A stretch of 28,065 nt of DNA from a virus, in the IMG/VR virus record IMGVR_UViG_3300042563_000332, positions 1 to 28,065 of that record, one strand, 5' to 3'. The notes below the pieces were generated by a model that was not told the origin of the DNA, did no database searches, and worked only from the letters and a program-made list of their open reading frames with translations. Numbering within the stretch: the stretch's first letter is position 1; every line of letters starts with the position of its first letter. The position numbers were made by a program, and so were the translations under genes. Shown here piece by piece: positions 14,983-22,762 of this stretch.

Positions 14983-14990
14983 GATAAATA
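14983..14990 (+). promoter_or_regulatory. Late promoter box adjacent to start codon (GATAAATA)
   Basis: Exact GATAAATA ending five bases before the ATG at 14996, the same spacing as the box before the terminase gene. With T4 late geometry, transcription would begin on the ATG itself. No ribosome binding site is visible. Confidence 0.55.
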
Positions 14991-14995
14991 AGTAT

Positions 14996-15580
14996 ATGAA
15001 AACAAAAACCGCAGATAAATTCTTTGACACCATTAACTTTATTAGTATCGTAGATACTGTAAAAGGTATATACACTAGTGACGGCACAATGTCCACTTTG
15101 TTAGACTATGAAAGAGTTATAGATGATGCTGATGTTTATGCATTTAAAAATTGGATTAACGGTGAGTTAGTTCAAGGTCCTGATGTAGGAAGATACACAG
15201 CAACTTGCATTTTCATGTGGCCGTACAAAATGATGCCTGATCCCAGAGGTGCTGTAAGATTATTAAAGATTGGATGCAAAGTAGAATTTGCTAAATCTGA
15301 AATAAAAGTTCCAGTTGAAGTAAGAGACTATGAAGACTTGGTCCCGGGCGGTAATTATCCCAAGATGAAAGAAAGAAAAGTTTGGTTCGTAAAAATAGAA
15401 ATACCTTTAGCACTAATGGATTCTATTAAAGAGGGATCTATTGACTTAGCAGATAGCACTATTGACTTAGCAGATATTGAAGATGCATATAACGAAGATT
15501 TAGACAAAGATGCGTCAAAAATAGAAGATTCTGAACAAGAAGATATGGATCAACCAGCATTACCATCAGAGCAGATATAA
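14996..15580 (+). CDS. Conserved unknown protein (194 aa), acidic tail
   Basis: I start it at ATG 14996 rather than the in-frame GTG at 14981, because that GTG overlaps the late promoter box. The first ~145 residues look globular (TADKFFDTINFISIVDTV, then YAFKNWINGELVQGPDVGRY, then RKVWFVKIEIPLALMDSI). The tail holds a short repeat (SIDLADSTIDLADIEDAY) and is strongly acidic and disordered. I do not recognise a defined family. The gene abuts the next one with no gap, so the two products may act together. Late promoters suggest a structural or assembly role. Confidence 0.6.
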   Translation: MKTKTADKFFDTINFISIVDTVKGIYTSDGTMSTLLDYERVIDDADVYAFKNWINGELVQGPDVGRYTATCIFMWPYKMMPDPRGAVRLLKIGCKVEFAKSEIKVPVEVRDYEDLVPGGNYPKMKERKVWFVKIEIPLALMDSIKEGSIDLADSTIDLADIEDAYNEDLDKDASKIEDSEQEDMDQPALPSEQI

Positions 15581-16127: not shown

Positions 16128-16156
16128 TTGACATTATCTAAATCGTGTTGTATAAT
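16128..16156 (+). promoter_or_regulatory. Consensus sigma70 promoter (TTGACA-17-TATAAT)
   Basis: Both boxes match the bacterial consensus exactly (16128-16133 and 16151-16156) with the ideal 17-base spacer. The dnaJ ATG begins six bases after the -10 box, at the predicted transcription start. It would give strong early expression of DnaJ and the Clp unfoldase by unmodified host polymerase. Confidence 0.85.
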
Positions 16157-19913: not shown

Positions 19914-19944
19914 GATAAATACTCTATATATTTATAGGGTATTT
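19914..19944 (+). promoter_or_regulatory. Late promoter overlapping an SD-sequestering hairpin
   Basis: GATAAATA (19914-19921) overlaps the 5' arm of a 12-bp hairpin, AAATACTCTATA (19917-19928) with TATAGGGTATTT (19933-19944), one G-T pair and a TATT loop. The 3' arm holds the GGG that would serve as ribosome binding site two bases before the ATG. Readthrough RNA from clpA would fold and hide it. RNA started at the late box (about 19927) would lack nearly all of the 5' arm. Confidence 0.7.
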
Positions 19945-19946
19945 AC

Positions 19947-20108
19947 ATGGCTAAAATCGTAGAAGAAATCATCGTAATCAAGCTAAGCAAATTAGTAAAA
20001 GACGATGTTACTCAGGGTATTGTAACTAATGATTTACAAGCGGCGCTAGAACAAGTTGCTCAAGAGTTGGTAGGTGATAGTGTGATAGTTGAGGTTGAAA
20101 AAGCCTAA
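19947..20108 (+). CDS. Small conserved phage protein (53 aa)
   Basis: ATG to TAA encodes MAKIVEEIIVIKLSKLVKDD and then a helix-strand end (NDLQAALEQVAQELVGDSVI, VEVEKA). The composition, the strand-helix-strand pattern and the one-base overlap with the next ATG (TAATG) support a real gene. I recognise the type from T4-like cyanophages as a short protein of unknown function. The start lies within the hairpin-controlled region, indicating tight late control. It probably forms a functional pair with the 122-residue structural-type protein that follows. Confidence 0.68.
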   Translation: MAKIVEEIIVIKLSKLVKDDVTQGIVTNDLQAALEQVAQELVGDSVIVEVEKA

Positions 20109-20484: not shown

Positions 20485-21753
20485 ATGAAAAAGATCGTAG
20501 TACTTCCAGGTGGCTATCACCCGTATCATGCAGGACATTATTCGCTGTTTAAAGCAGCAGAAGAAAAGTTTCCTGATGCTGATGTATACTTAGCAGCTAC
20601 TAACGATACCAAAACTCGTCCGTTCCCTTTTGAAATTAAAAAGAAACTAGCACAATTAGCTGGAGTTAATCCTGATCAATTTGTTCAAGTAAAAAGTCCT
20701 TTCAAAGCTGAAGAAATTACTCAAAAATATAATCCTGAACAAGATGTATTAATATTTGTTAGAAGCGAAAAAGATAGAGACGAACAGCCTAAGCCCGGTG
20801 GTACTAAAAAAGATGGATCACCTTCATACTTTCAACCATATGATCCCGATAATTTAGAATCTTTTAATAAACATGCTTACATGGAATACTTACCGACTAT
20901 TGAGTTTGGACCCGGTATTAAAAGCGCGACAGAAATAAGAAACGCTTGGCCTAACTTAAACGAAAGACAAAAATTAGCAATGGTAATGAGTTTATACCCT
21001 AGAACACAACAAAACAAAAAGCTGGCTGATGTAGCAGTAAAAATGTTAGATGCCGGTATTATTGGTGATCAAGTAAATGAAGAAGGTGTAGCGGAGGGCT
21101 GGAAAGACGTTGTAGCAGGGGGTGCTTTAGCATTAGCATCATTGGGAGCTAATGCTCAAACTTCTGATATGGATAACATACAACAGTATACGCAACTAAC
21201 TAAACAGTATTATGAAGCATTGGTTGATCGCGCAGAGAATGAAGACGGTTTTGTTTTAGATAGAAGAGACTTAAATCGTATTAAAGCAAAAGCACAAGAT
21301 ATGGCCGCTGCAAAAGTAGCCAAACAGAAACAGAGTAATACACAGAATAATAATTCATCAAGTAATAGTTTTCCAAGTCAGGGAAGCGAAAGAAGAGTGG
21401 CTAGTGATAGAGATCAGTTTGAGTCAATGGATGTTGAAGAAGCAACTCTTATTAACGATCCAGAACAAGGTCATTTGATTGTACCAGACGGCGGTATGGG
21501 TACTTGGGATGAACAATCACTTTTATCTAACTTAACAAGAAAGTTTTCTAGTATGGTAGAAATGATCAAAGAAAAAAGATACAGCAATTTGTATCATTCA
21601 CTGTACGAAGCTGGTGTAGTAGAAAACATGTTAAAAGCATTAGTTGAATATGAAAACTTTAAAACCAAGCAAGGTAACAGACCTATAGCTAAAAATCGTT
21701 CTATTGATATAAGTCAAGTTAACGAATCTACAGATTATATCTCAGAAAAATAA
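20485..21753 (+). CDS. Nucleotidyltransferase fused to an internal-protein-like tail
   Basis: Residues 1-196 form a cytidylyltransferase-like Rossmann domain: PGGYHPYHAGHYSLF with HxGH at 15-18, VYLAATNDTKTRPFPFEIKK, and IKSATEIRNAWP corresponding to the ISSTxxR motif. Such enzymes join a nucleotide to a phosphorylated partner (NMN, pantetheine or an alcohol phosphate); the substrate here is unknown. At 197-204 come two hydrophobic-x-Glu sites (VNE, VAE), then a hydrophobic segment (VVAGGALALASLGANA, 209-224), a helical part, an Asn/Ser linker and a C-terminal helix domain ending VNESTDYISEK. ATG behind TAAGGA. The fusion is the odd part; the enzyme family is fairly sure. Confidence 0.8.
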   Translation: MKKIVVLPGGYHPYHAGHYSLFKAAEEKFPDADVYLAATNDTKTRPFPFEIKKKLAQLAGVNPDQFVQVKSPFKAEEITQKYNPEQDVLIFVRSEKDRDEQPKPGGTKKDGSPSYFQPYDPDNLESFNKHAYMEYLPTIEFGPGIKSATEIRNAWPNLNERQKLAMVMSLYPRTQQNKKLADVAVKMLDAGIIGDQVNEEGVAEGWKDVVAGGALALASLGANAQTSDMDNIQQYTQLTKQYYEALVDRAENEDGFVLDRRDLNRIKAKAQDMAAAKVAKQKQSNTQNNNSSSNSFPSQGSERRVASDRDQFESMDVEEATLINDPEQGHLIVPDGGMGTWDEQSLLSNLTRKFSSMVEMIKEKRYSNLYHSLYEAGVVENMLKALVEYENFKTKQGNRPIAKNRSIDISQVNESTDYISEK

Positions 21754-21760
21754 TTTGATG

Positions 21761-21801
21761 TCCTCTTCAGATAGTAAATAATATTACTTATTTGAAGAGG
21801 A
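21761..21801 (+). promoter_or_regulatory. Long SD-sequestering hairpin with embedded late-promoter-like box
   Basis: TCCTCTTCA (21761-21769) pairs perfectly with TGAAGAGGA (21793-21801). Pairing continues as G-T, A-T, T-A and, after one bulged base, AGTAA (21773-21777) with TTACT (21784-21788). The 3' arm is the ribosome binding site (GAAGAGGA) of the glycosyltransferase gene. AGTAAATA at 21773-21780 is one mismatch from the late consensus. A start near 21786 would remove the 5' arm. There is no T tract, so it is not a terminator. Confidence 0.75.
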
Positions 21802-21805
21802 TAAC

Positions 21806-22699
21806 ATGGCAAAACGTAAAACAAATCAAGACAAAGCTATTCCAGTAGAAGCAGTTCAGGAACTAGCTGATAAAGCACCACAAGCAGCAAGCATCGGCGG
21901 CACTGAAGCTCCCGCACAAAATCAAGTTCAAGTCAATGTAGATTTTTTAAGAACTACAAGAGCACATTTGGCAATGCCCTGCTACGGTGGCATGTTAACA
22001 GAATCTACATTCATGAGTTATATCAAGTGGGCTAACACTGCTAGACAGTTAGGCATTGACTGGACTCTTGAGACAATGGTAAACGAGTCGCTAATTAGCA
22101 GAGCTAGAAATACACTGACTGCCAAGTTCTTAGAAATGCCTGAATCATCTCACTTGATGTTTATTGACGCTGATATTGGTTGGGAGCCATGGCATCTACT
22201 GGTTCTATTAAACAGAGATGTAGATGTAATCGGTGGACTTTACCCGATGAAAACTATGCCAATTAAATGGGTAGTAAACGGGTTTGATGGAGCAGAAGAA
22301 GGCGCCGATGGTTTACAAGAAGTAAGTAAAGCAGGTACTGGATTTTTATTAACCAAGAAGCATGTATTTGAAAAAATGAACGGACATCCTGCTGTGAAGC
22401 AGTATAAGAATGATATTGGTCTTGACCCTAAATATGACAAGTACTTGAAAACTTACTTTGACACAGCAGTAAGGCAAAACAGATATTATTCAGAAGACTG
22501 GACTATGTGTGAAAATTGGCGTGATCTAGGTGGTAGAATTTGGGTTGACAAACGAGTTTTGTTAAGACACACAGGTACTTATACCTTCTGCCAGGAAAAT
22601 CAAGACCATTTGTTGAATACTATTGGACCTATGTATCTAGAAGCACAAAAAGCTAAAGGAATGAAACTGGTAGATCAAGCAGGAAATGAAGTAAAATAA
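21806..22699 (+). CDS. GT-A glycosyltransferase
   Basis: A 297-residue protein. After a disordered N-terminal 40 residues it carries a GT-A nucleotide-sugar fold: SLISRARNTLTAKFLEM, then SSHLMFIDADIGWEPWHLLV with the DxD metal/nucleotide motif in DAD, DVDVIGGLYPMKTMPIKWVV, an acceptor-side segment with SKAGTGFLLTKKHVFEKM, and YSEDWTMCENWRDLGGRIWV near the end. This matches glycosyltransferases common in marine T4-like phages. The target (phage DNA base, virion protein or host glycan) is unknown; phages here may use it on Thr-rich fibres, which is speculation. Strong ribosome binding site, but inside the hairpin described upstream. A terminator follows after about 20 bases. Confidence 0.85.
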   Translation: MAKRKTNQDKAIPVEAVQELADKAPQAASIGGTEAPAQNQVQVNVDFLRTTRAHLAMPCYGGMLTESTFMSYIKWANTARQLGIDWTLETMVNESLISRARNTLTAKFLEMPESSHLMFIDADIGWEPWHLLVLLNRDVDVIGGLYPMKTMPIKWVVNGFDGAEEGADGLQEVSKAGTGFLLTKKHVFEKMNGHPAVKQYKNDIGLDPKYDKYLKTYFDTAVRQNRYYSEDWTMCENWRDLGGRIWVDKRVLLRHTGTYTFCQENQDHLLNTIGPMYLEAQKAKGMKLVDQAGNEVK

Positions 22700-22718
22700 T
22701 AATATTTTGACATAAAAA

Positions 22719-22738
22719 GGGGCTTAGGCCCCTTTTTT
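22719..22738 (+). terminator. Rho-independent terminator
   Basis: GGGGC / GCCCC stem with a TTAG loop, extended by A-T pairs, and a T run (22733-22738). Nearly the same stem sequence as the two-way terminator at 14012. Ends the structural/glycosyltransferase block. Confidence 0.92.
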
Positions 22739-22762
22739 ATTGTTCTATAAATTTACAGATTT

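Follow-up and report, generated by a model that had tools for sequence, protein, structure and literature searches.

The glycosyltransferase-like gene that begins at 21806 in the window (the entire 28,065-nt stretch of viral DNA analysed here) is very probably controlled by a two-layer late-expression switch, in which readthrough RNA from upstream is silenced by a hairpin and a late promoter embedded in that hairpin yields an RNA with an open ribosome-binding site. Mechanistically, RNA from upstream, initiated at 16128 (sigma-70 promoter) or at 19914 (late promoter), would carry both arms and fold into a hairpin at 21759-21803 that hides the Shine-Dalgarno sequence, so that the glycosyltransferase would barely be made. 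Late in infection, RNA polymerase with a phage gp55-type sigma would start at the embedded GTAAATA, near A21786, and the resulting RNA, being without the 5' arm, would expose the Shine-Dalgarno on a 20-nt leader and be translated. We infer the start site, the folding in vivo, the repression and the timing of this switch from predicted folds and from comparison among related phages. The elements involved are:

16128-16156 (+), sigma-70 promoter (TTGACA, 17 nt, TATAAT; 12/12), probable source of early readthrough RNA
19914-19945 (+), sister switch, a late box within a hairpin predicted to bury the ribosome site that serves the gene at 19947
20485-21753 (+), upstream gene with a cytidylyltransferase-like domain, ending 52 nt before the ATG
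21759-21777 (+), 5' arm of the hairpin (RNAfold), co-varying with the 3' arm between phages and absent from the predicted late RNA
21773-21780 (+), late-promoter-like box AGTAAATA, core TAAATA
21778-21783 (+), hairpin loop (RNAfold)
21784-21803 (+), 3' arm of the hairpin, in which U21788 forms the bulge (RNAfold)
21786 (+), predicted late transcription start, an A, by T4 spacing
21796-21801 (+), Shine-Dalgarno AGAGGA, wholly within the 3' arm by sequence and fold, its GAGG kept in relatives
21806-22699 (+), regulated gene, starting with ATG at 21806 and encoding a 297-aa GT-A-fold glycosyltransferase-like protein (phrog_1574)
22712-22740 (+), intrinsic terminator after the glycosyltransferase gene

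Hairpin, late box and predicted upstream transcription

Structurally, RNAfold predicted a single hairpin from U21759 to A21803, with 19 pairs, one bulge (U21788) and a 6-nt loop, at a minimum free energy of −23.2 kcal/mol compared with −7.3 ± 2.3 kcal/mol in dinucleotide shuffles (z = −7.0; 0/200 shuffles as stable). In the 267-kb copy of the same phage, its z-score of −7.8 was the most extreme among 42 late-box genes, and an Rfam search of the window gave no match. The initial annotation, made from the window sequence, had proposed perfectly pairing arms extending to about 17 pairs with one bulge, a buried ribosome site, and a box one mismatch from the late box lying in the 5' arm and loop, and each of these held: TCCTCTTCA (21761-21769) is perfectly complementary to TGAAGAGGA (21793-21801), the core at 21761-21801 has 17 pairs, GAAGAGGA (21794-21801) is paired throughout the fold, and AGTAAATA occupies the upper 5' arm and the loop. 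This box differs from AATAAATA at one position and from GATAAATA, a common octamer in this phage, at two, with TAAATA as the shared core. Its late-type GTAAATA (21774-21780) is a minority form, found in 3 of the 42 late-box genes of this genome, which counts somewhat against the switch. T4 late promoters place the box at −13 to −6 relative to the start. With that spacing, late transcription is predicted to begin at A21786, the sixth base after the box, and the 20-nt leader of the resulting RNA would exclude the 5' arm.

The consequence for the ribosome can be expressed as the cost of opening its binding region, which for the window leader was 18.7 kcal/mol in the long RNA versus 1.9 kcal/mol in the predicted late RNA. 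Mean costs were 11.2 kcal/mol for readthrough RNA, 2.1 kcal/mol for predicted late RNA and 5.6 kcal/mol with shuffled arms. Other late-box genes (69, from three genomes) averaged 5.2 kcal/mol, near the 4.7 kcal/mol of their own shuffles, and the pattern of the long RNA being closed and the late RNA open occurred in 84 of 106 leaders of the glycosyltransferase gene versus 13 of the 69 other late-box genes. Such hairpins are thus specific to this gene and a few others and no general feature of late promoters. The arm-shuffle test flagged neither the sister site at 19914 (p = 0.81) nor T4 gene e (p = 0.39). At both, the arm is made by the box itself, and the test can inform only on arms that lie 5' of the box.

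The phage belongs to an uncultured family of T4-like bacterial viruses, and the window matches a 267-kb IMG/VR record (L007) at 99.4-100%. A gp55-type late sigma was found in that record by direct family search (phrog_234, E 9.6e-23), whereas gp55 was absent from the 25 families listed in a PHROG scan of 127 proteins; phrog_234 was present in 5/6 related records, the 267-kb record counted. The gp45 clamp family (phrog_223) gave a weak match in 1/6 records (E 6e-4) and none in the 267-kb record, which divergence may explain. In addition, the TAAATA core is strongly enriched 5' of genes in the 267-kb record, and the baseplate wedge protein encoded there most resembles those of jumbo T4-related phages. 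The late sigma, the enriched core and the T4-related baseplate wedge together make it reasonable to assume T4-style late transcription.

Upstream, the sigma-70 promoter at 16128 is one of 37 consensus sites in this genome, where 5 would be expected, and no terminator-like site was found on the + strand between it and 22712, so readthrough RNA across the hairpin is predicted to be likely. Because this upstream RNA could be partly late (a box lies at 19914), ‘insulation from upstream RNA’ is a safer wording than ‘early versus late’.

Variation among leaders and competing explanations

Four scans yielded 109 distinct leaders of the glycosyltransferase gene, the window's own counted, and TAAATA lies 27-42 nt 5' of the ATG in 106 of them. 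At the sixth position past the box, 71/73 distinct leaders have an A versus 42/90 other late-box genes, a preference that fits a fixed start at the predicted +1, although pairing in the upper stem may contribute. In most leaders an arm upstream of the box closes the ribosome-binding site despite widely differing arm sequences. Pairing was compared without alignment, as arm registers slide: mean pairing between a phage's own 5' arm and 3' segment was −12.4 kcal/mol versus −9.0 kcal/mol when segments were swapped between phages (47 clusters; z = −9.6), with related phages not fully independent even after clustering. CCTC occurs upstream of the box in 55/106 leaders versus 4/72 control late-box genes, and around this CCTC/GAGG anchor 53% of cells for the flanking bases were paired versus 39% after permutation, with exchanges among T-A, A-T, C-G and G-C pairs. 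This same sliding of registers accounts for RNAalifold finding no consensus structure on a MAFFT alignment of 53 leaders. In six genomes, a scan with a rigid and overly strict pattern gave no match, nor did a megablast of the region against cultured phages.

At a pairing threshold of 0.4, the 106 leaders are predicted to close the Shine-Dalgarno in 91 cases (34 of these the AUG too), mainly the AUG in 11 and neither in 4, class counts that stand without a control comparison. The part of the initiation region that would be closed varies by phage, which points to selection for silencing and not for one sequence. The co-occurrence of hairpin and late box is not chance. This agrees with the initial annotation, which had taken two such cases within 2 kb to suggest regulatory design: besides the near-invariant box, the A at +1, the co-varying arms and the site exposed in the predicted late RNA, the setting supports it, with a late sigma gene, an upstream sigma-70 promoter with no terminator-like site in between, and a conserved sister switch, both hairpins recurring in relatives.

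Three other explanations were weighed against this evidence. Ribosomes ending the upstream gene might melt the base of the stem, so that expression follows the upstream gene and not the gene's own late RNA. Such translational coupling is suggested by the position of the upstream stop (21751-21753), only ~6-8 nt from the stem, and by stop-to-ATG gaps in relatives that are mostly 49-60 nt, but it leaves unexplained a near-invariant TAAATA inside the hairpin and a preferred A six bases on. The stem, moreover, lies outside the upstream gene, and two relatives (L011 and L026) keep the hairpin though in them the ATG lies 120 nt from the end of the closest long upstream frame; we consider coupling quite improbable. 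A stable hairpin that regulates nothing, or that serves the RNA in another way (as processing site, end protection or thermometer), beside an ordinary late promoter would accommodate the few relatives that keep the box without a hairpin (L029 and L049, as well as L068 and L295). It is nevertheless very unlikely, as closure of the ribosome site is far above that of shuffled arms and of other late-box genes, and end protection is impossible for a predicted late RNA without the 5' arm. A terminator reading of the hairpin was dropped, there being no T-run after the stem.

The inverted repeat could alternatively act in DNA, as an operator around the box that binds a transcription regulator, as in I-TevI autorepression, with the RNA fold a by-product. 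The repeat does enclose the promoter box, and the T4 I-TevI operator overlaps a late promoter (PMC2988022). However, a protein operator would conserve sequence, whereas here arm sequences vary widely with complementarity kept, exchanged pair types included, and some leaders close mainly the start codon, making this the sort of explanation to which we assign almost no probability. The two-layer switch suggests that these phages avoid making the glycosyltransferase from upstream RNA, a clue to the protein's role.

Sister switch, other candidate sites and the regulated gene

At 19914-19921, within a hairpin spanning 19916-19945, the sister switch carries the box GATAAATA, with arms GATAAATACTC...AGGGTATTT. 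For the homologous 53-aa gene, 31 distinct leaders were compared, and most have a similar late box and hairpin, mostly AAATACTC...GGAGTATTT. We consider it about an even bet that in this clade the embedded late promoter and start stay fixed as the core and the silencing arm is remade again and again, sliding between closure of the Shine-Dalgarno and of the start codon, and that together with the conserved switch at 19914 this makes a conserved cluster of two late genes insulated from upstream transcription.

Several other sites combine these elements. In the same phage, a strong hairpin with the embedded late box CCCTCTTTATTAAATACATATAAAGAGGAG precedes a 412-aa gene with no PHROG match (L088:18494, +), with a leader opening cost of 19.5 versus 1.9 kcal/mol. 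Homologues of phrog_15894 in two phages (L090:1795-2505 and L110:12428-13156, both −) have a late box in a hairpin pairing the Shine-Dalgarno, and hairpins span the late box of head-tail adaptor (phrog_211) genes in two phages (L098:8026-8790 and L108:512-1309, both −). Separately, TAAATA shows a second peak exactly 10-11 nt before the ATG in 36 genes of three genomes (G001, G003 and G006), with few at adjacent offsets; an SD-like motif was found in 0/36 of these genes versus 327/811 of all genes, the box itself occupying part of that region. Window examples are boxes at 51-58 (ATG at 64) and 14983-14990 (ATG at 14996). With T4 spacing, transcription would begin on the A of the ATG, making these genes a candidate class of leaderless late mRNAs.

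The predicted structure of the regulated protein (mean pLDDT 70) has its matches among GT-A glycosyltransferases and related folds, lysyl hydroxylase LH3 and STIV A197 being two of them. Distant cultured homologues (ACG-2014f, Cr30 and phiM12; ~27-33% identity) have no TAAATA box in their leaders, a further point against the switch. The ACG-2014f homologue has a small hairpin adjoining the AUG, and those of the alphaproteobacterial T4-like phages phiM12 (L126:1974-2951) and Cr30 (L125:1998-2846), also without a late box, lie near replication/recombination genes (46, 45 or clamp). In the literature searched, no link of such a switch to a glycosyltransferase was found.

Comparison with known switches

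Switches of the hairpin and late-promoter kind have been described for a handful of genes in T4 and near-T4 phages, with few sequences each. The roughly one hundred natural variants of a single switch described here show which parts are kept by selection, and so turn the mechanism into a testable rule by which such genes can be sought in uncultured phages. In T4, the initiation regions of e, soc, 49 and I-TevI are closed (reviewed in PMC3014915), and further homing-endonuclease cases are listed in PMC2988022; segB and Aeh1 mobE are also of this type (PMC3014915, PMC2988022). In longer transcripts of T4 gene e, structure lowers lysozyme synthesis 100-fold, and the late-promoter RNA, without the 5' part, is translated well (PMC3014915).

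Our predictions for the window leader resemble gene e in having the ribosome site shut in the long RNA, a late promoter inside the hairpin and a late RNA without the 5' part. On the same metric, the opening cost for gene e was 15.7 versus 3.4 kcal/mol, next to 18.7 versus 1.9 kcal/mol here, and T4 soc showed the same contrast between long and late RNA. In gene e, however, the box supplies much of the 5' arm, whereas the box at 21773 has most of the 5' arm on its upstream side and itself sits at the stem top and in the loop, the 19914 design, with the box itself in the arm, being the closest to gene e; the regulated gene also differs, a glycosyltransferase here and a lysin there. As with T4 soc, 49 and I-TevI, segB and Aeh1 mobE, a late gene lies inside a long upstream RNA, would be closed there, and has a late promoter that omits the 5' arm, but the gene is a different one without homology, and those switches are experimentally supported whereas support here is purely comparative. 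The promoter itself resembles T4-type late promoters (TATAAATA, gp55) in its TAAATA core, the presence of a gp55 family gene and the strong preference for A at the expected start, and departs from them in having GTAAATA, not ATAAATA. Judged from leader sequences, the best reading is that this element belongs with the T4 e/soc/49/I-TevI-type switches, here on the gene of a GT-A glycosyltransferase.
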